Below are positions 31,402 through 49,106 of a stretch of 64,000 nt of DNA, in pieces (the stretch's first letter is position 1; every line of letters starts with the position of its first letter). The notes below the pieces were generated by a model, which saw only the letters and a list, made by a program, of their open reading frames with translations, was not told where the DNA came from and ran no database searches. Source of the DNA: Halorubrum ruber. Lineage in GTDB: Archaea > Halobacteriota > Halobacteria > Halobacteriales > Haloferacaceae. The stretch lies in the NCBI RefSeq assembly GCF_018228765.1, contig NZ_CP073695.1:434001-498000 (forward strand), written 5' to 3'. The translations under genes were made by a program, and so were the position numbers.

Positions 31402-34400
31402 TCAGAGCGCGGGTGCGCTCGGCGTGGCGGTCGATTCGACGCTCGGAGCGGTGACCGAGGACTGGGTGTCCGCGGCGTTCATCTCCGGCGGTTCCTCGAT
31501 GCCGGCGACGATCTGCAGGATGTAGGTCACGTCAGCGGACGTGATCTGTCCGTCCTGGTTGACGTCACCGAGCATCTCGATCTGGTCGTCCGGAACCTCG
31601 GTCGGCAGGCCGGCGATGTAGCGCTGGACGATGACCGCGTCACCGGCGGTGATCTCGCCATCGGCGTTCACGTCGCCGAGCTGGCCGTCGAGGACCGTGA
31701 CGTGGCCGTTGTCCCAGTTGGTGAGGTAGGAGTCACCGTCGGGGCCGAAGACCGCGGACTCGGAGCCGACGAGGCTGACTTCGGCCTCCTCGCCGTTATC
31801 CATGTCGACGACCTCGAACTCGATGGAGGCCATCTCGGGCGCGTCGGCGCCCTCCGCCTGCGCCTGCGTGAGGAACAGCACGCCGTTCTCGTTGTCAACC
31901 TCCATCACGGGGTCAGCCATGTCCTCGCCGGAGACGTCCTCGACTTGGAGCTTCTCTGGATCGAACTCGATCGTCGCCTCGTAGCCGGAGACGTTGCTGA
32001 CGTCCGTCTGGAGCGTCACTTCGGCGTTGCTACCGGGCGAGACCGTCGTCTCGGTCACTTCGACCGTGCCGGCGGGCTCCGGCGGGTTCGCCGCGACCTC
32101 GACCATGTTCGCGAGGATGGTGTTCGCCTCTTCGGTAAACTCGTCACCGTTGACGAATAGCGTGCTACCGAGGCCGGCACCGAGGACGTCCCACCGCTCC
32201 TCGCTGACTGCGGCGCCGCTACCGGGGACGGTGTCGCCGTCGAACTGGGCGTCGGCGAGCACGGTCCCTTCGGCACCGTTGAAGTACGACACGTCGATGC
32301 CCGTGTGGATCTGGACAGTGTCGCTGTCGATGCCGTCGAAGACCGGGTGGTCGGTCGCGATGTTCGTGTACGACGACTCGTCGCCGAGGTCGTCGTCGAC
32401 TTCGGCGGGCGCACCGATGGCGCTCGAGCGCGCCTCGATACCGTTGGAGTCGCTACCCCACTGGTCGAGGTAGACCGTGCCAACCCCGACGCTGGCGGTC
32501 GCGTCCGCGAACGCCTCGGCGTTCTCTTCGTCGATTTGCTGGACGACGAACGCATCGTACTCGCCGGTCGAGTCGATGGCGGTGTCGGCGTCGATGACTG
32601 TCAGCTCGTAGCTCGCCGGGAGCTGGCTGGCGGCGCGGCTCGCGACGTCAGAGCCGTACTCGCCGTCGTCATCGACGACGCCGACCTGCGTGAACTCGGC
32701 GAAGACCTCGGTCGGGCCCGTGGTGACTTCGAGACTGTCACCGGCGCCCTCGAAGGTGTGAACCACCGAGAGGTCGCCGCTGGAGCCGTCGGCCGTCTCG
32801 ACGGTCACGGTCGCCATGCCGCTGTAGTCGCCGAGGTCGACCGGTTCACCGAGCGCGATCTCGTTCCCGTTCAGGTACACCGTGGCGTTCTCGGCACTGA
32901 AGCCGTCGCCGAGTTCCGCGGTGTACGTCTCGAGGTTCGCGACCTGTACCGTCGCGGAGACGTTCTGGCCGCCTTCGACGGCGCTCGCCTGGCCGGACTC
33001 GAGCGAGACGCCGAGTGCGGGACCGAGGCTGAAGTTCGCGGTGACGGTCTCGTTATCACCGACTTCGACCGTCTGGCTCGAACTCTCCGCGCCGAACGCG
33101 TCGGCGGTAACGGTGACATTGCCGGTCTCGGCGAGCACCGTGTACTCACCGTCCTCGTTCGTGGTCGCTTCGAAGCCTTGGTCGGTGGAGACGGACGCGC
33201 CCCCGATGGCCGAACCGTCTTCGTCCGTCACCGTGCCGGTAATCTCCTGTTCGAGCGCGACCATGTCGGTCGCCTCCTTGATGTCGATAATCCCGTCACC
33301 GTACCGGGTCGGGTCGGGATCCTCCGTCGGCGCCCAGGCCGTCTCCGTGAGCGCCTCCGTAGCGGTGGACTTGTCGATGTCGCCGGCCGCGGAGAGCATC
33401 AGGGCGTACGCGCCGCTGATGTGCGGGGCGGCCATCGACGTGCCGGAGAGCTCTTGGTAGCCGCCGCCGGGCTGGGCGCTTTTCACCGCGACGCCGGGCG
33501 CGGCGTAGTCGGGCACGATGTAGGTGTCCGGCCAGTCGCTCGGGGCGGCGTCGCCCCAGTCAGCCTCGGTGTCGACTTCCTCACCGCTGGAGAACGAGGC
33601 GATGCCGCCGTCCTCGTTGCTGGCGCCCGCGGCGATGCTCTCGTAGACGTTCCCCGGGCTCCCGGAGCTACCCTCGTAGCTGTTGCCCGCGGACGCGACC
33701 AGCACTTTACCAGCCGCCTCGATGTTCTGCGTCGGCTCGATCATCTCGGTGAAGTAGCCTTCCGCACCCAGGCTCATCGAGACGACGTCGACGCCGGACT
33801 CGTTGGCGGCCCACTCCATCCCGCTGGCGACCTGCGCGAAGCTCCCGCTCCCGCCCGGGATGACAAGACCGTGGTAGAGCTCCGCATCGGGCGCGACGCC
33901 GATGTACTCGCCGCTGGCGTTGCCGCCGACGACGGTCCCGGAAACGTGGGTTCCGTGGTCGCTGCTGTCGTACGGGTCCACGTTCTCGACGCCGTCCTCG
34001 GTCGCCTCGACGAAGTTATCGGGGTCGATGTTGATGTCCGGATGATCGGGATCGACGCCCGTGTCGAGCACGGCGACGCCGACGCCCTCACCCTGAGTGT
34101 CGTACTCGTCCCAGACCTCGGTCGCGTTGATCTGATCGAGGCCGTAAGTGGTGTTGTAGCTCGCGGACCGGACATCGTCGGCGCTCGCGCGCTCCTGCTG
34201 GAGGTTCTCCGGAACCGTCAGCTCGAAGTTCGCGTGTGCGCGGTCGACGCCTTTGATCTCGGTGACGCGCTCGATGTTCACCTCGTCCGTATCGACCTCG
34301 GCGAGCACCGCGTTCGCGATCCAGAACCGCTCGACGGTCTCGATTCCCTCCGTACTACCCGCGTACCGGAGGAAGTTCTGCTGGGTGGCCGCCGAGTGCT

Positions 34401-34698
34401 GTTTCATCGACCGGATGGCTGCTTGTCCCGTCACGCCCTGGAGGGACGCGCGGTCGATCTCGTCGAAGCGGAAAATCACTTCGACGGTACCGTCAGCCTC
34501 CTGGAGGGCCGGGTCGACGTCACCCTGTGTCCCGAACTCTACTGGAGCTCCGGGGTTCTGGATGCCGTCGCCGAACGATGCCGTATCAGTTGCCGCGTCT
34601 GTTCCCCCGCTCCCCGGTGCTACCCCGGCCGCGCCTCCAACAGGCGCGAGCAGGAGTATCACCGCGAATACCGTGGCGAATATTACGTTACGTGACAT
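31402..34698 (-). CDS. Secreted subtilisin-like protease with cohesin and dockerin modules
   Basis: 1098 aa. A signal peptide (1-24) and an inhibitor-like propeptide (about 60-160) precede a peptidase S8 domain with the triad Asp212 (AVLDTGVDPDHPD), His248 (SSDHGTHVSGT) and Ser421 (SGTSMAAPHISGA), and oxyanion Asn339 (ASAGNS). Next are a carboxypeptidase-regulatory-like domain (about 485-555), a ThuA/glutamine-amidotransferase-like region (about 640-830), a cohesin-like domain (about 845-975) and a type I dockerin with two calcium loops, GDVNADGEITAGDAVIVQRY and GDVNQDGQITSADVTYIL. Multi-domain extracellular proteases of this kind are known in haloarchaea. The neighbouring membrane protein has a matching cohesin. 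Confidence 0.88.
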   Translation of the reverse strand: MSRNVIFATVFAVILLLAPVGGAAGVAPGSGGTDAATDTASFGDGIQNPGAPVEFGTQGDVDPALQEADGTVEVIFRFDEIDRASLQGVTGQAAIRSMKQHSAATQQNFLRYAGSTEGIETVERFWIANAVLAEVDTDEVNIERVTEIKGVDRAHANFELTVPENLQQERASADDVRSASYNTTYGLDQINATEVWDEYDTQGEGVGVAVLDTGVDPDHPDINIDPDNFVEATEDGVENVDPYDSSDHGTHVSGTVVGGNASGEYIGVAPDAELYHGLVIPGGSGSFAQVASGMEWAANESGVDVVSMSLGAEGYFTEMIEPTQNIEAAGKVLVASAGNSYEGSSGSPGNVYESIAAGASNEDGGIASFSSGEEVDTEADWGDAAPSDWPDTYIVPDYAAPGVAVKSAQPGGGYQELSGTSMAAPHISGAYALMLSAAGDIDKSTATEALTETAWAPTEDPDPTRYGDGIIDIKEATDMVALEQEITGTVTDEDGSAIGGASVSTDQGFEATTNEDGEYTVLAETGNVTVTADAFGAESSSQTVEVGDNETVTANFSLGPALGVSLESGQASAVEGGQNVSATVQVANLETYTAELGDGFSAENATVYLNGNEIALGEPVDLGDYSGMATVTVETADGSSGDLSVVHTFEGAGDSLEVTTGPTEVFAEFTQVGVVDDDGEYGSDVASRAASQLPASYELTVIDADTAIDSTGEYDAFVVQQIDEENAEAFADATASVGVGTVYLDQWGSDSNGIEARSSAIGAPAEVDDDLGDESSYTNIATDHPVFDGIDSDTVQIHTGIDVSYFNGAEGTVLADAQFDGDTVPGSGAAVSEERWDVLGAGLGSTLFVNGDEFTEEANTILANMVEVAANPPEPAGTVEVTETTVSPGSNAEVTLQTDVSNVSGYEATIEFDPEKLQVEDVSGEDMADPVMEVDNENGVLFLTQAQAEGADAPEMASIEFEVVDMDNGEEAEVSLVGSESAVFGPDGDSYLTNWDNGHVTVLDGQLGDVNADGEITAGDAVIVQRYIAGLPTEVPDDQIEMLGDVNQDGQITSADVTYILQIVAGIEEPPEMNAADTQSSVTAPSVESTATPSAPAL

Positions 34699-43466: not shown

Positions 43467-46400
43467 CTACGTCGTTCGGAGGTGGCCCTGCTTGGGTTCG
43501 TACACCTCGCCCTTCGTCCGGAGCTTCTCGATCTCCTGTTCCGCCTTCCCCGGGTCCATCCCGATCTCGCCCGCGCGGTCGAGCACCTCGTCGACCGGCG
43601 CGCCCTCCTCGTACTCCTCCTCGATGTCGGCGATGAGCCCCTTGATGTTCTTGATGCGGTCGCGCTGGCTCTTCGAGGTGCCCGTTTCGACCACGTCCGC
43701 GTCGAACTGCCCCGTCTCGGGGTCGACGCCGATGTCTTTGAGACACGACTCGACGATGTCGGTCGCGCGGTCGGCGTCCTCGCGCTCGACGGTATCCGAC
43801 AGGCGGACCCGCGCGCTCGCCTCCGAGAGCCGCACCATCGCCTCCAGCTTCCGGGCGGTGACCGGTACCGGCGCGTCCTCGTCCGCGCCCTTCGAGCGCA
43901 GGTCGACGTAGAACTCCTCGATGAGCTCCTTCGCCTCGTCGGTCATCGTCGGGAAGCAGGACCGCTTCGCGTGGGCGATGTACTTCCGCAGCAGCTCCGA
44001 GTCGATCTCCGGCGCGACCTCCTCGGTCACCTCCGCAACCTGCTCGGACGTGAACTCCGAGCTCGCCAGCTCCTCGCGCTGGGTGTTGAGCTCGCCGGCG
44101 TAGTTCGTCTTGATGATGTGTTTCGCCAGCCGGGAGTCGTGTTCCGGGTCGGGACTGTCCGTCACCGTGAAGATCAGGTCGAACCGCGAGATGAGGGCGG
44201 GCTCTAAGTCGATCTGCTCGCCGATCGGCTCGTACTGGTCGAACCGGCCGTACTTCGGGTTCGCCGCGCCGAGCAGCGAACAGCGCGCCTTGAGGGTGGC
44301 GTTGATCCCGGCCTTCGAGACCGAGATCTTCTGTTGTTCGAGCCCCTCGTGCATCGCGGAGCGGTCAGAGGAGTTGTGGACGACGAGCCCGTTCGCGACG
44401 AAGTTGTGCGTCCCCTCTACGGTCAGGTCGTACACCCGCGGTCGCTCCCCGTCGTCGATCCGCGTCAGTATCGACCGCAGATCCTCTCTGACGGCGGTCA
44501 CCTCGCTCGCGACCGCCTCACGCACGTCGCCGAGCCGGTCGGTCTCGACAGCGCCCGACAGCCACCGAGATACGGTCGCCTGACTCACGTCGAGCCTCGA
44601 CGCCACATCCGCCTGACTAACCCCGTAGGCGTCGAGCGCCGCCGACAGCTCCGATCGCGTTTCGCCGACCGGACCGCGGTCGAGCAGTTCGCGAGCGCGC
44701 GTTTCCGCCGTGTCGACCGGCCCACCGATGACGTCTGCGAGATGCTGTCGGAGCACCTCGCCGCGGTGTTCGGTCGACTCCGGGGGGACCGTTTCGACCG
44801 ACTCGACCTGACGCCACTTCACGTCGCCGCGGACGAACTCGCGAAGGTCGTCGAAGTCGGTCTCCGCGACTCCGGTGAGGATCTCTCGCAGCCGCTCGGT
44901 CACCGTCCGACGGACCTCCTCGCTCTCGCCCCACTCGCGGGAGATCTGCTGTTGGGACAGCGTCGTCCCGTCCGCGAGTTCGGACTGCGAGACGTGGTAC
45001 CGCTCCCGCAGCTCCGAGAACATCTCCCACGTCGGTTTCTCGTCGAGTCGGCGCCGGTCCTCGGTGGCCGCCTCTCGCCGTTCCTCGAACGCCACGAGTA
45101 CCTGGCGGGCGCGGTGGAGCGAGACGTTCGCACCGCCGCTCTCGAAGTCGTGGTACGTGACCGCTTCGAGTCCGCACTCACGCTGATGGAGCCGGAGCGA
45201 GTCGCGACACCGCGCGAGCACGTCGCCGACCTCTGGGACTACGTCGAGGATCGTGCGACCGCCGCCTGCCGAATCGACGACGCGGTCGAGCGCCGCCGCC
45301 TTCCGCGTGGCCGTGAATCCGACGTACCGCCGGAACGCCGCGAGCGAGTCGGCGTCGGTCACCGTGAGGTAGTACACGTCGCGGCCCTCGTTCCGCTCGC
45401 GCCGCTGGAGCTGACTCGACACGCCGAACCCTAAGAGGAGGTTCCGCGTGCCTCGGAGCAGGTCTCGGCTCGCAGATGCTATCCGAACGTTGCCGGCCGA
45501 CTCGTCGACGTGCCCCTCGCTGTCCGCGAGCGCGCGGATGAACGCGGCCTTCGCCGCGCGGCTCCCGGTCGAAACGGGGGTCGGGAAGCACTTCTCGTCG
45601 TACCCACCGAGGTTCATTCCCGCGTCGAGGACGGCGTCGGCGTGTTCCTTCCCCGTGACGCGGACCGTCTCGACGCCGTCGTCGCGCTTCTCGCTCGGCG
45701 GACGGGTCGGCTCCGCGTCGAACGCCGCCCGCGCCGCGCGCTCGAAGTCGTCCAAGAGCTCGTCGTCTGCGTTGGTGAACCGGACGCCGTAGACGCCCTC
45801 GTCGCGGTCGTAGTAGACGTTCCCGTCGCCGGAGAGGTATCCGAGGACGCTCGCCATCGCGGGGTCGACGCCGTCAGTGTCGATTCTCTCGCTGTCGACC
45901 GGTTCGGTTACCGGTCGGTCTCCGCCGTTCGCCGCCACCGCTCCGCCGTCCGCCGCCTTCGTCGGGATCTCGCGGGGGACGTACACCCAGTCGCCGTCGT
46001 CGAGCGCGGCCGCCTCGCGCTCGACGCGCTCGCCGTCGTCGAGGACGAAGAACGGGTGGTCGGCGGTCGCGGTCAGCGACTCGCCGGTCTCCATCGTCAC
46101 CCGGGTCAACTCCGACGGCGCGTCGTACTCGTGGACCGCGGAGACGGGGCGCTCGACGAGGTTGCCGTCCCCGTCCATCGACCAGACGTCGAGGTCGACG
46201 TCGCGGACGCGGCGACCGTTCGAGAGCTCCTCGATGTCGCCGTCTTCGGCCGCTTCCCGCGCCAGTTCGTCGATGCGCTCGACGCGCCCGTCGGCGAGCG
46301 AGACCAGCGTGTCGCCCGTGACGCAGTCCATCTTGTCCAGCTCGTCGACCGCGGCGATCCCCTTGTCCGCGAGCACGAGCGCGCCGGCTTCGAGCGACCA

Positions 46401-49106
46401 CTGCTGGCCGTCGCCGAAATCGTCGCGGACGGCCGCCGCCGTGAGGCCCGCCGCGGACGACCCCTTCCCGGACGTGTACACCGAGCGAGGTGCGATGTTT
46501 TCGACGTACGAAATCATCTGGGAGTTATGAGAGACGACGCTGTTTCCGAGATACGTGTGCGTGTCTCTGACCTCGAGATCGTAGACCCACTCGTAATCCG
46601 GATCGACCGATTCGATCGACTCGATCCGGTCCCAGTGAACGTCGTTCGTACACAGACGATCGAGTTCGGAGATGTCTTGGCTGACGGATAATGCCTCGTC
46701 GAGACGATCCAAAATCACGTCCTTTGCATCCGCGGTCTGTCCACCGTCTGGAGCGACGTCGTTCCGCTCATAGTAGCTGATCGCGGTTTGAGAGACGTCC
46801 ATACCCTCCGAGAGTACCTTCTGAGAGATGTTCAGTTCCTCTCGTAGCGTCTCGACTGCCTGCCAGTCACCGTCCAGCAGCTCTCCGCGCTTCTCCCGAA
46901 GCCAGTCTAAGCGGGTTTCGAACGTGTCGACAACCGCTCTCAGACTCGCTCTACTCGGATTTCTGTCGCCGCGTTCGTAGTGTTGATACGTCGGACGCGG
47001 CAGTCCGATATCGAACTGTGACAACGCGAGCGCCTCGCGGATCTGCCGGAGATCGTCACTTAGTCCCGGAATCACATCCGTGTTTGTGTTCTCTGGAACG
47101 TCGTCGAACGCTTTCGAGGCCGTCGCTTTGCGATCGGTGACGAATCCAATTTCGTCGACGTATTTGACGAAATCCCGTCCACTGATGCGCAGTCGGTGGC
47201 TGTCGTTGTGTCGTTTCCGAAGATGGCTCTGGATCCCGAACGCGAGGAGTAACGTCTGTACTCCGGTCAGCAGTTCTCTACTCATCGAGGAAACCGTGAT
47301 TTCGCGTTCTTTGGGTGAGACTGTCCCCTCGCTGTCAACGTACGCCTGTAGGAATTCCTTCTTGTTCTCCGGACTCGCCCGTTTGAGACAATCGGGGACG
47401 AGTTGATTCTCAGAGTTTTTGAGAATTGCCGGTTCGAGTTCTCTGAGGAACCGGACGAACTCCAACGAGGAACAGCGGACGATTTCGGCAGTCTCATGAT
47501 CCCATTTCTCTAGACGGGACCACCGAACGCCCAACTCGCGGAAGCAGTTCTCCACGTCCGTCAGTATCTCTTCGTCGACGTTCGTAACCTCGGTAGCAGC
47601 ACTCGATCCCGAGAGATAGGTGTGGCCCTCTGCGATGATATAACCGAGGAGTCGAGCCAGAGTGGGATCGACTCGGGTGGGCGGCGTGAACGAATTCGCG
47701 TTGTAGGCTTCGACCTGCTGGAACGAAACATCAAGCGAATCATCCCAATCGGCGTCGATGTTTCCGGGGACCGCAATGAGGTCTCCTTCCGCCAATTGAT
47801 CTGCCCGTCGGGGAGACAATCCTCTGTTCAACTGTTTGAACAACGGGTGCGACGGTGTTACTTCTACTTCGCGCCCCGATGCCATCAAAATTCTGTGCAT
47901 CCTATCCGGCGCTTCTCGTTTCCAGACTTTTGTCGCGGTCCCAGTCTCGACGGCCCCCGATTCGGTTACTGTTTGAACGCCGACATCTACCGGTTCGTAT
48001 ACCCCGTCGTCGACCTCTATCGGGTCTTCGAGGTTTGACTCTACTATATCCCCGAGTGCCCGTTCCGTTCCGTCAGCAAGTGTCACCTCTGTATCATATT
48101 TTTGACACTTACCCGTACCAGGGTCGCCGATCAGGAGCATGTGGAGGTCGCCGCGGATCCGCGACCCGTCGGGGAGGTGTTTGGTGACGCCGGAGAACAG
48201 CTGGAGGATCATCGCGAGCTTCTCCTCCTCGTAGCCGTAGATGGCGGGCGCGATGGAGCCGACCATCGCCTCGTAGATGTCGTCGCGCTCGGAGAGCTCG
48301 ATGATGTCGCGTTTGTCCGCCTCCGTGATGTCCATGTCCTCGAACTCCTCGTCCTCGATGGCGATGGAGACGCCGTCCATGTAGAGGTCGAAGATGGCGG
48401 ACTTCTCGTTGCCCTGCTCGACCTGCTCGATGTGGAGGACGCCGACGCAGGTGACGTGGTCGCCGGGGCTCACCTCGCCGGTGATGTCGTCGACGATGTC
48501 GACGTCGATCGACTGGGGCGTCTCGCCGCCGCGCAGTCCCTCCGGAGACTCCTGGATGCGGAGCTTCTGGGAGTCGACGAACTCGGACTGGTCGAAGTTG
48601 ACGCGGAACGGGCCCTGCCGCTCGCAGCCCTGGCACTCGTGGGGCTCCTGGAAGCCGCCGTCGGACTGCGGGATGTACGTCATCGTGCCGCAGCGCTGGC
48701 ACTCGAAGGCGGCCTCGGTCACCTTGGGGCGGACGTCCGTGGCCTTCCGGACGATGCCCTGGATTGAGACGAGCTTGCCGATGTGGTCGTCGTGGACGCG
48801 GATGCCGCGGATGTCGACGCTCTCGGGGAGGTCCTCGATGCGGACGTGCGCGCGGCCGAGGCTGACGTCGGCGGGGAGGTCGTAGAGTCGCAGCGCCTCC
48901 TCGGCGTACTCGCGCATCTGCTCCGGCTTGTTCAGGAAGTCCTCGGCGAGGTCGCGGTCGAACTGGAAGAGGTCGTCGTAGGAGACGTACAGCGAGCGCT
49001 GCTCGTTGGGGTACCGCTGCGCGAGCTGCCCGATCTCCTCCCGATAGTAGTTGCGATAGAACTGAATGAACCGCTCCGTGAGGTCCTGGGTGCCGGCCTG
49101 AGCCAT
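43467..49106 (-). CDS. mcm: Replicative MCM helicase, interrupted by two inteins
   Basis: 1879 codons, of which about 700 remain after splicing, the normal haloarchaeal MCM length. Before intein 1: the N-terminal OB/zinc region (CQRCG...CQGCERQGPF zinc ribbon, residues 136-161) and the start of the AAA+ core to Walker A (LLIGDPGTGK, 324-333). Between the inteins: SQMISYVENIAPRSVYTSGK through the Walker B VLADKGIAAVDELDKMD (862-927). After intein 2: SSDRSAMHEGLEQQKISVSK, the arginine-finger region (LISRFDLIFTV) and the C-terminal winged helix. It unwinds DNA ahead of the replication fork. Both inteins sit in the ATPase site, so splicing is required for function. Confidence 0.95.
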   Translation of the reverse strand: MAQAGTQDLTERFIQFYRNYYREEIGQLAQRYPNEQRSLYVSYDDLFQFDRDLAEDFLNKPEQMREYAEEALRLYDLPADVSLGRAHVRIEDLPESVDIRGIRVHDDHIGKLVSIQGIVRKATDVRPKVTEAAFECQRCGTMTYIPQSDGGFQEPHECQGCERQGPFRVNFDQSEFVDSQKLRIQESPEGLRGGETPQSIDVDIVDDITGEVSPGDHVTCVGVLHIEQVEQGNEKSAIFDLYMDGVSIAIEDEEFEDMDITEADKRDIIELSERDDIYEAMVGSIAPAIYGYEEEKLAMILQLFSGVTKHLPDGSRIRGDLHMLLIGDPGTGKCQKYDTEVTLADGTERALGDIVESNLEDPIEVDDGVYEPVDVGVQTVTESGAVETGTATKVWKREAPDRMHRILMASGREVEVTPSHPLFKQLNRGLSPRRADQLAEGDLIAVPGNIDADWDDSLDVSFQQVEAYNANSFTPPTRVDPTLARLLGYIIAEGHTYLSGSSAATEVTNVDEEILTDVENCFRELGVRWSRLEKWDHETAEIVRCSSLEFVRFLRELEPAILKNSENQLVPDCLKRASPENKKEFLQAYVDSEGTVSPKEREITVSSMSRELLTGVQTLLLAFGIQSHLRKRHNDSHRLRISGRDFVKYVDEIGFVTDRKATASKAFDDVPENTNTDVIPGLSDDLRQIREALALSQFDIGLPRPTYQHYERGDRNPSRASLRAVVDTFETRLDWLREKRGELLDGDWQAVETLREELNISQKVLSEGMDVSQTAISYYERNDVAPDGGQTADAKDVILDRLDEALSVSQDISELDRLCTNDVHWDRIESIESVDPDYEWVYDLEVRDTHTYLGNSVVSHNSQMISYVENIAPRSVYTSGKGSSAAGLTAAAVRDDFGDGQQWSLEAGALVLADKGIAAVDELDKMDCVTGDTLVSLADGRVERIDELAREAAEDGDIEELSNGRRVRDVDLDVWSMDGDGNLVERPVSAVHEYDAPSELTRVTMETGESLTATADHPFFVLDDGERVEREAAALDDGDWVYVPREIPTKAADGGAVAANGGDRPVTEPVDSERIDTDGVDPAMASVLGYLSGDGNVYYDRDEGVYGVRFTNADDELLDDFERAARAAFDAEPTRPPSEKRDDGVETVRVTGKEHADAVLDAGMNLGGYDEKCFPTPVSTGSRAAKAAFIRALADSEGHVDESAGNVRIASASRDLLRGTRNLLLGFGVSSQLQRRERNEGRDVYYLTVTDADSLAAFRRYVGFTATRKAAALDRVVDSAGGGRTILDVVPEVGDVLARCRDSLRLHQRECGLEAVTYHDFESGGANVSLHRARQVLVAFEERREAATEDRRRLDEKPTWEMFSELRERYHVSQSELADGTTLSQQQISREWGESEEVRRTVTERLREILTGVAETDFDDLREFVRGDVKWRQVESVETVPPESTEHRGEVLRQHLADVIGGPVDTAETRARELLDRGPVGETRSELSAALDAYGVSQADVASRLDVSQATVSRWLSGAVETDRLGDVREAVASEVTAVREDLRSILTRIDDGERPRVYDLTVEGTHNFVANGLVVHNSSDRSAMHEGLEQQKISVSKAGINATLKARCSLLGAANPKYGRFDQYEPIGEQIDLEPALISRFDLIFTVTDSPDPEHDSRLAKHIIKTNYAGELNTQREELASSEFTSEQVAEVTEEVAPEIDSELLRKYIAHAKRSCFPTMTDEAKELIEEFYVDLRSKGADEDAPVPVTARKLEAMVRLSEASARVRLSDTVEREDADRATDIVESCLKDIGVDPETGQFDADVVETGTSKSQRDRIKNIKGLIADIEEEYEEGAPVDEVLDRAGEIGMDPGKAEQEIEKLRTKGEVYEPKQGHLRTT
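44373..46325 (-). mobile_element. Intein 2 of MCM (651 aa) with LAGLIDADG and HTH-like segments
   Basis: Starts at Cys928 (CVTGDTLVSLADGRVERI) and ends VEGTHNFVANGLVVHN at Asn1578, with Ser+1. Splicing blocks A, B (TATADHPFF), F and G are intact. DOD endonuclease motifs: ASVLGYLSGDGNVY and FIRALADSEGHV. Residues about 1364-1412 and 1486-1525 read like Cro/C1 helix-turn-helix units (HVSQSELADGTTLSQQQISR; YGVSQADVASRLDVSQATVS). The latter is inserted between WRQVESVETV and the terminal RVYDLTV strand, making this intein much longer than usual. Confidence 0.9.
46524..48107 (-). mobile_element. Intein 1 of MCM (528 aa) with LAGLIDADG and HTH-like segments
   Basis: Starts at Cys334 (CQKYDTEVTLADGTERAL) immediately after the Walker A Lys and ends RDTHTYLGNSVVSHN at Asn861, with Ser+1. 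Block B is EVTPSHPLF. DOD endonuclease motifs: RLLGYIIAEGHTYL and FLQAYVDSEGTVS. Two Cro/C1-like HTH segments lie after the second motif: IREALALSQFDIGLPRPTYQ...YERG (about 689-712) and LREELNISQKVLSEGMDVSQ...YYERND (about 754-783). Confidence 0.9.

Follow-up and report, generated by a model that had tools for sequence, protein, structure and literature searches.

Tandem helix-turn-helix domains in two inteins of the Halorubrum ruber MCM helicase, with a third one predicted inside the C-terminal half of a splicing fold

Helix-turn-helix (HTH)-like accessory domains are known from inteins that carry a LAGLIDADG homing endonuclease (HEN). In the TliVMA intein, as far as the accessible part of its description goes, such a domain gives a second or alternative cleavage site in vitro, grafting transfers this ability, and deletion of the domain lowers DNA binding (PMC8966425). 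The HENs at two sites in the mcm gene of Haloferax mediterranei cut their targets and home in vivo, according to the accessible text on that species (PMC10643990). The site at which inteins take up an endonuclease is described, in the available portion of another report, as extremely conserved, with insertions elsewhere in the splicing fold being restricted and the dorsal side of the fold being the one that permits them (PMC6801210). Here, the mcm gene at 43467-49106 on the minus strand of a 64,000-nucleotide stretch of Halorubrum ruber DNA (contig NZ_CP073695.1, positions 434,001 to 498,000; the whole stretch is called the window and its numbering is used throughout) was analyzed. Its two inteins are probably mobile LAGLIDADG inteins in which the domains HTH1, HTH2, and HTH3 act as DNA-binding accessory domains that aid target finding in mcm. 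In intein 1, the stretch from the HEN to the C-terminal splicing half holds HTH1 and HTH2, both of the Cro/C1 type, in tandem. The HEN-HTH1-HTH2 arrangement recurs in intein 2, which has HTH3 in addition, within the C-terminal half of the Hint splicing fold (Table 1).

The gene encodes a haloarchaeal MCM helicase in one frame of 1879 amino acids (aa), from which removal of the two inteins leaves a 700-aa extein, and the MCM family domain (PF00493) is matched as three pieces with the inteins between them. Intein 1 is inserted directly after the Walker A lysine (GDPGTGK/S) and intein 2 at a D/S junction that lies three residues beyond Walker B. Their positions correspond to sites A (MCM-a) and C of MacNeill, following the accessible part of that article (PMC3972481), and the second junction agrees with the R/S or D/S site named MCM-d in the part of the H. 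mediterranei report at hand (PMC10643990). The splicing residues, namely Cys1, the block B His, block F, the terminal His-Asn, and the +1 Ser, are all present in both inteins, and C1, H90, H640, H650, and N651 of intein 2 are invariant in all 67 members of its alignment. Each intein matches PF14528 in two stretches, corresponding to two LAGLIDADG motifs with their catalytic acids, and the Pfam domains LAGLIDADG_3, Intein_splicing, and HTH_3 are found in both. Judged by these signatures, both would be classed as class 1 LAGLIDADG (DOD) homing inteins. In another genome of the genus (G044), the inteins at sites A and C are identical to those of Halorubrum sodomense (L137).

The HTH domains were recognized by family profiles. 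In intein 1, HTH_3 (PF01381; Pfam cut-off 23 bits) matches two stretches, with E=7.6e-17 for the entire intein and 1.3e-18 (67.2 bits) for the segment alone. When segments of intein 2 are scored singly, HTH_3 is found in HTH2 (4.6e-5, 23.8 bits) and in HTH3 (4.1e-6, 27.2 bits); for the HTH1 segment of the window copy, Pfam gave nothing significant (best HTH_31, E=0.6), and this domain is assigned to the Cro/C1 (Xre) family only through profile comparison, its helices being visible in the structural model. Chance is excluded for the HTH matches of intein 2, because 63 of the 67 alignment members match HTH_3 at E<=0.001. Comparison of the two family profiles with hhalign gave probabilities of 99.8% for HEN against HEN, 99.5% for HTH1 against HTH1, and 97.4% for HTH2 against HTH2; therefore, the two sites most likely hold one HEN-HTH1-HTH2 module by shared descent, the alternative being a likeness common to Xre domains in general. 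For HTH3, the probabilities are 97.1% and 96.3% against HTH2 of the two inteins and less than 1% against HTH1; HTH1 and HTH2 of intein 1 align with each other at 95.0%. HTH3 may thus have arisen as a duplicated copy of HTH2, or may show a generic Xre likeness. The recognition-helix residues T584, S586, R587, and W588 of HTH3 are each conserved in at least 90% of 67 alleles. The distance from the WRxV strand to VYDL has a median of 123 residues (102-127) in the 84 of 85 full alleles in which it could be measured, and is 13 residues, counted by eye, in the mini-intein of G075. A sequence-only reading of the window had described two mcm inteins with extra HTH segments, two in intein 1 and at least two in intein 2. 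The open reading frame, the Pfam profiles, and the models bear this out, with three such domains in intein 2. That reading had also placed one HTH in the stretch ahead of the last splicing block of intein 2, and here its position was right and its size of about 90 residues was too small, since the insert measures 114 residues as delimited (516-629) and about 110 net of the mini-intein loop.

AlphaFold2 models were built from the window sequences together with 66 related sequences for intein 2 (pLDDT 86, pTM 0.82) and 24 for intein 1 (pLDDT 91, pTM 0.85). HTH3 is modeled between the splicing-fold strands 502-513 and 630-636, its core being flanked by helices 519-533, 537-549, and 598-627. The closest solved folds are all HEN inteins, TliVMA (7qss, 7qsu) and PI-TkoII (2cw7). 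For intein 2, the matches are 7qsu (Z 35.7, 340 residues aligned, 3.5 A), 2cw7 (34.2, 383, 3.6 A), and 7qss (33.6, 404, 3.7 A), and for intein 1 they are 7qss (32.8, 407, 2.7 A), 7qsu (31.9, 339, 2.5 A), and 2cw7 (31.3, 394, 2.6 A), where rows within 1 Z of each other count as ties. TliVMA is the top Foldseek row for both models and is also among the first three rows by Z score. In intein 2, the endonuclease I-DmoI aligns with residues 150-352 only, and in intein 1 with residues 143-333 only. In the models, the HTHs are thus folds separate from the HEN core, as the earlier reading had supposed, and the possibility that they form a portion of the endonuclease itself is ruled out by the models and the fold matches. 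The structure 7qsu, which we take to be accessory-deleted TliVMA, aligns 68 fewer residues of intein 1 than 7qss; this difference is consistent with a correspondence between the TliVMA accessory HTH and one HTH of the modeled intein 1.

The alleles at both sites were compared among relatives. Of 146 genomes of the order searched, 139 gave an mcm match, and 89 mcm genes were fetched, comprising frames of at least 814 aa plus two intein-free ones. Named loci, 75 in all, were added; they hold the 80 relatives, out of 469, that most resemble intein 2. The two sets overlap, and only identical sequences were collapsed while near-copies were kept, which left 97 distinct alleles for the Walker A site and 100 for the post-Walker-B site. 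The counts for the latter leave out L203, which has a run of N; L183, L192, and L197, which lack an unbroken intein at this site; and G081, which is the contig of L197 with a broken frame. At the Walker A site, 34 alleles have HEN, HTH1, and HTH2, 25 have HEN and HTH1 (two of them with a lost acid), 5 have HTH1 and HTH2 without HEN, and 33 have none of these domains. HTH1 accompanies the HEN match in 59 of 59 distinct alleles there, and HTH1 together with HTH2 does so in 88 of 88 at the post-Walker-B site. In the latter set, which is enriched for full-length intein 2, HTH3 is present in 86 of 100 alleles. Both catalytic acids are found in 83, with a full HTH3 in 82 and a shortened one in L195; the HEN is damaged in 5, of which 3 keep HTH3 and 2 lack it; and 12 are mini-inteins without HEN, HTH1, HTH2, and HTH3, shorter alleles of the kind with which the earlier reading had proposed a comparison. 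Complete loss of HTH3 is thus seen in none of the 83 alleles that have both HEN acids and in 14 of the 17 whose HEN is damaged or absent. In the genome sample alone, 30 of the 38 post-Walker-B alleles are full and 8 are mini, and no intermediate form occurs. A search of 170 genomes of the family with intein 2 gave 54 matches, 52 of which cover the whole intein; the other two (G547, G549) have frame sizes as in the Haloquadratum loci L203 and L200. These two loci, from metagenome-assembled genomes, lie in genes with several inteins and are without HTH3 at site C, both HEN acids being changed in L200. Presence is sporadic, in that empty and mini alleles occur at the same sites across the 89 mcm genes. 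Among nine genomes of the genus (eight fetched genes plus the window), the post-Walker-B intein is present in six and the Walker-A-site intein in seven, while one genome carries only a site-B intein and one carries none. At site A, L094 (G119) and L098 (G143) differ by a non-synonymous distance (dN) of 0.07 in the HTHs, 0.04 in the C-terminal half, and 0.39 in the N-terminal Hint part, which looks like a recombinant intein.

Within Halorubrum, purifying selection acts on the HTHs of intein 2. Mean dN divided by mean dS (synonymous distance) gives 0.27 for HTH1, 0.27 for HTH2, and 0.20 for HTH3, as compared to 0.17 for the HEN and, in the Hint fold, 0.13 for its N-terminal half and 0.17 for its C-terminal blocks; these means come from 375 of the 378 pairs among 28 alleles, and the pairs share branches and are not independent. 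For HTHs without HEN, the comparison of G012 with G039 gave 6 non-synonymous and 6 synonymous changes (ratio 0.36, from too few changes), and the changes in the HTHs of intein 1 among close relatives are likewise too few for a ratio.

If the HTHs are accessory domains of homing, both inteins would excise themselves from MCM and invade mcm alleles with an empty site, the mobility of these copies being presumed. HTH1 and HTH2 would join the HEN to the C-terminal splicing half and help to position or select the mcm target, and HTH3, which is most similar to HTH2 in sequence and inserted in a splicing-domain loop of intein 2, would serve the same purpose. The HTHs would be expected to contact DNA at the homing site, and they may tune specificity or search. 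This explanation is favored because HTH1 occurs with every HEN match (at the post-Walker-B site together with HTH2), because HTH3 is never wholly lost where both HEN acids are present, and because of the low dN/dS values and the conserved recognition helix of HTH3. It is favored also because the closest folds are HEN inteins with HTH-like accessory domains and because, in the accessible account of H. mediterranei, the HENs at both sites act in vivo (PMC10643990). The earlier suggestion that the HTHs could bind the homing site is the one that fits these counts and the analogy with TliVMA best, the binding itself being a prediction.

Several observations weigh against this explanation. HTH2 is absent from 23 Walker-A-site alleles with both HEN acids, and HTH1 and HTH2 persist there without HEN in L127, L128, L094, L061, and L165, with a short HEN remnant in L061. 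These five alleles require at least 4 changes on the tree, all of them forced by well-supported branches, on a tree that does not separate gain from loss. At site C, L195, the sole allele among the 83 with a shortened HTH3, has both HEN acids and has lost about 20 residues of HTH3 from the recognition helix on, and three alleles with a damaged HEN (G010, L196, L198) retain HTH3. The named alleles were chosen by likeness to intein 2; therefore, full-length alleles take too large a share of the 100, and this weakens the count that links HEN and HTH3. The association is strong when uncorrected for descent (Fisher p 1.5e-14). The mini-inteins cluster on the splicing-domain tree, where HTH3 shows 5 changes. 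Well-supported branches hold only 2 independent pairs, too few for the sign test to reach significance, and its result after correction for descent is not significant (median p 0.5). None of these pairs runs against the link; the sister genomes G039 (mini) and G012 (full), with a support of 99, are the clearest case, and L199 beside L163 and L195, with a support of 87, is another. The link is therefore relied on for its direction only. The isolated TliVMA accessory domain seemingly adds little overall affinity, as stated in the accessible part of that study (PMC8966425). Moreover, in the part of the H. mediterranei report at hand, a target of 34-35 bp lowers plasmid transformation and is enough for cutting (PMC10643990); therefore, HTHs reaching beyond 34-35 bp are not needed for cutting, and such a target would leave little DNA for three HTHs, insofar as the H. 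mediterranei allele, known by description, is comparable.

Some of these observations would suit a different role, or none. The HTHs could be passengers, roleless relics of domain shuffling kept for want of deletion, as the dispensability of HTH2 at the Walker A site, the persistence of HTHs in the five HEN-less alleles, the faster evolution of HTH1 and HTH2 than of the HEN in intein 2, and the weak HTH1 signature of the window copy would allow. However, the dN/dS values of 0.20-0.27 across the three HTHs of intein 2 make passenger status unlikely, and the presence of HTH1 in all Walker-A-site alleles with a HEN and the conservation of the HTH3 recognition helix also speak against it. It is distinctly unlikely that HTH3 couples DNA binding to splicing, so that mcm or chromosomal DNA would speed or block excision and gate the maturation of MCM. 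Its location within the Hint fold beside block F, not merely tethered to the HEN, its conservation under purifying selection, its retention in the three alleles with a damaged HEN, and the HEN-less HTHs in 5 of 97 Walker-A-site alleles agree with such a coupling, but 12 of 12 post-Walker-B mini-inteins without HTH3 keep Cys1, the block B TxxH, THN, and the final HN. The post-Walker-B intein is, moreover, found in only six of nine genomes of the genus, and with so patchy a presence an essential switch is not expected. The earlier idea that splicing acts as a switch on replication accordingly finds no support here, as the inteins come and go among congeners. A stronger form of the coupling, in which intein 2 would be a DNA-gated splicing element whose HTH3 senses an empty mcm site or MCM-loaded DNA and times excision, is very unlikely; if true, it would couple the splicing of the replicative helicase with homing.

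A regulatory role, the second possibility that the earlier reading had raised for the HTHs and one at which the HEN-less HTHs of the Walker A site and the position of HTH3 in the splicing fold could hint, has in general a low probability. Another role for the excised intein might be that of a Cro/C1-type repressor, directed for instance at mcm or at its own HEN, so that HEN toxicity is limited. The membership of the HTHs in the Cro/C1 (Xre) family and the existence of inteins with HTHs and no HEN are compatible with this, but the HEN is made from the mcm message and repression would presumably cut the expression of an essential gene, and this explanation is very unlikely. The function as accessory domains of homing is thus the one retained.

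The distribution of the domains was followed beyond the two sites. Among 392 genomes of the phylum, a profile of the HTH3 insert matched 20 at 100 bits or more; 19 of these matches lie in fetched mcm genes, and the remaining one (G418) is mcm by frame size and by the intein 2 search. Below these, the best matches reach 30.6 bits, in the intein at the Walker A site of G012 and in a frame of 324 aa in G112; at most 11 candidates were scored per genome, and weak relatives may therefore be missed. HTH3 was also considered as a widespread intein domain, and this was rejected, as strong matches among the candidates scored are confined to mcm genes. In 146 genomes, the HTH1-HTH2 profile (at most 27 candidates scored per genome) exceeds 49 bits solely in mcm frames, including those of G013 and G019, which are mcm by size and match, and two further matches of 27.7 bits are 219-aa frames. 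The same genome has further inteins outside the window (L343-L346), two in PolB, one in RNA polymerase A'', and one in the RFC small subunit, as well as one mini-intein in the DNA polymerase II large subunit, the host proteins being named by eye; the HTH profiles had no match in these inteins. Scans of viral contigs gave 59 + 13 loci, many with HENs of this kind. Among them, the matches of the HTH1 profile were limited to two frames that are not inteins (L277, L279) and those of the HTH3 profile to one frame of 101 aa in L235, at 17 bits; the HTH2 profile had none. Five of the viral contigs (L267, L268, L270, L271, L274) have P-loop inteins in helicase-like proteins, and their segment after the HEN recalls HTH1 by eye through the motif RNPTxxxL, the HTH1 profile giving no match. 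Within the order, four mcm intein sites are occupied, with site B at extein position 360 (L047 (G120), L144, L161, and others) and site D at 413 (L162, L207). The site-B inteins have, by eye, an HTH-like segment upstream of the HEN. A Pfam HTH scan of four proteins, two each for sites B and D, gave none above the cut-off, with a weak HTH_3 match (7.4e-4) in the site-D intein of L207, one of the two scanned. Elsewhere in the window, at 31402-34698 on the minus strand, a 1098-aa protein combines subtilase, carboxypeptidase-regulatory-like, cohesin, and dockerin domains in one chain.

Table 1. Position of the mcm gene, its inteins, and their domains in the window; residues are those of each intein unless stated otherwise.
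Feature	Position	Strand	Evidence or remark
mcm gene, replicative helicase	43467..49106	-	open reading frame; PF00493 in three pieces
Intein 1, 528 aa, protein aa 334-861	46524..48107	-	between GDPGTGK and S of Walker A
Intein 1 LAGLIDADG endonuclease (HEN), residues 145-335	47103..47675	-	LAGLIDADG_3 1.1e-25; acids E160, E260
Intein 1 HTH1, residues 345-409	46881..47075	-	HTH_3; model helices 350-359, 371-379
Intein 1 HTH2, residues 412-485	46653..46874	-	HTH_3/HTH_19; model helices 415-424, 429-436, 440-448
Intein 2, 651 aa, protein aa 928-1578	44373..46325	-	after DELDKMD, before S
Intein 2 LAGLIDADG endonuclease (HEN), residues 150-346	45288..45878	-	LAGLIDADG_3 1.3e-27; acids D167, E270
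Intein 2 HTH1, residues 358-424	45054..45254	-	hhalign to intein 1 HTH1; model helices 367-377, 388-396, 403-427
Intein 2 HTH2, residues 430-497	44835..45038	-	HTH_3 4.6e-5; model helices 433-443, 447-451, 458-464
Intein 2 C-terminal Hint half upstream of the insert, residues 498-515, strand 502-513	44781..44834	-	model; mini-intein alignment
Intein 2 HTH3 insert, residues 516-629, inside the C-terminal Hint half	44439..44780	-	HTH_3 4.1e-6; model; alignment
Intein 2 HTH3 core, predicted helices 557-567, 571-578, 582-590	44556-44657	-	model
Intein 2 splicing blocks F and G (RVYDLTVEGTHNFVANGLVVHN)	44373..44438	-	continuous with the mini-intein fold

The 114-residue HTH insert in the C-terminal Hint half indicates a further site at which the splicing fold tolerates an insertion, and it is carried by 30 of 38 alleles in an evenly drawn sample of the order. 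The alleles constitute a natural deletion series, with three, two, one, or no HTH and with HTHs lacking a HEN, in which the roles of accessory domains can be studied. The presence of one HEN-HTH1-HTH2 module at two mcm sites is in line with the proposal, made in the literature, that inteins reach new sites with the aid of accessory domains. Summarizing, these are probably ordinary mobile inteins with a new domain arrangement.

Among the literature matches listed, in a coverage that leaves most subscription journals outside, no HTHs were described in haloarchaeal MCM inteins and none in a C-terminal Hint half. The mcm inteins of H. mediterranei occupy the same two sites, as can be deduced from the D/S or R/S junction given in the accessible part of the report (PMC10643990). 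The terms "HTH" and "helix-turn-helix" do not occur in the main text of that article (0 occurrences for its mcm inteins), nor in the main texts of PMC6801210 and PMC4071816. The Pyrococcus CDC21-1 inteins (6rpp, 6rpq) share the P-loop of an MCM-family protein as insertion site and a Hint fold that superposes with Z 24-26 but, by the available portion of their description, are mini-inteins without HEN (PMC6801210). PI-TkoII (PI-PkoII; 2cw7), which carries a HEN, has an HTH-like accessory domain as well as a further domain IV, going by the accessible text (PMC8966425), and differs in having extra unaligned sequence before the HEN (chain 130-270) and after it (433-485) and an uninterrupted C-terminal Hint piece (486-528). 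TliVMA resembles the present inteins in combining Hint, a LAGLIDADG HEN, and an HTH-like accessory domain between the HEN and the C-terminal Hint half, as well as in its P-loop insertion site, whereas it has, as far as its available description reaches, one accessory domain instead of two or three and a C-terminal Hint piece without insert. HTH1 and HTH2 of both inteins follow this layout, and intein 2 departs from it by the further domain, HTH3, in the C-terminal Hint half. An accessory domain inserted within Hint is also found in PI-SceI, the yeast VMA intein, where the insertion lies in the N-terminal Hint half, in contrast to HTH3, which lies in the C-terminal half before block F. Besides PI-SceI, no intein with an accessory domain inserted in Hint is known to us as a precedent. 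In the accessible part of the TliVMA study, the PI-SceI domain is not one of the two accessory domains called HTH-like (PMC8966425). The layout of intein 1, a HEN with accessory HTHs, is already known in kind. The modeled layout of intein 2 appears to be new, with an accessory HTH at a Hint position that is without insert in all five aligned solved chains (2cw7, 7qss, 7qsu, 6rpp, and 6rpq).

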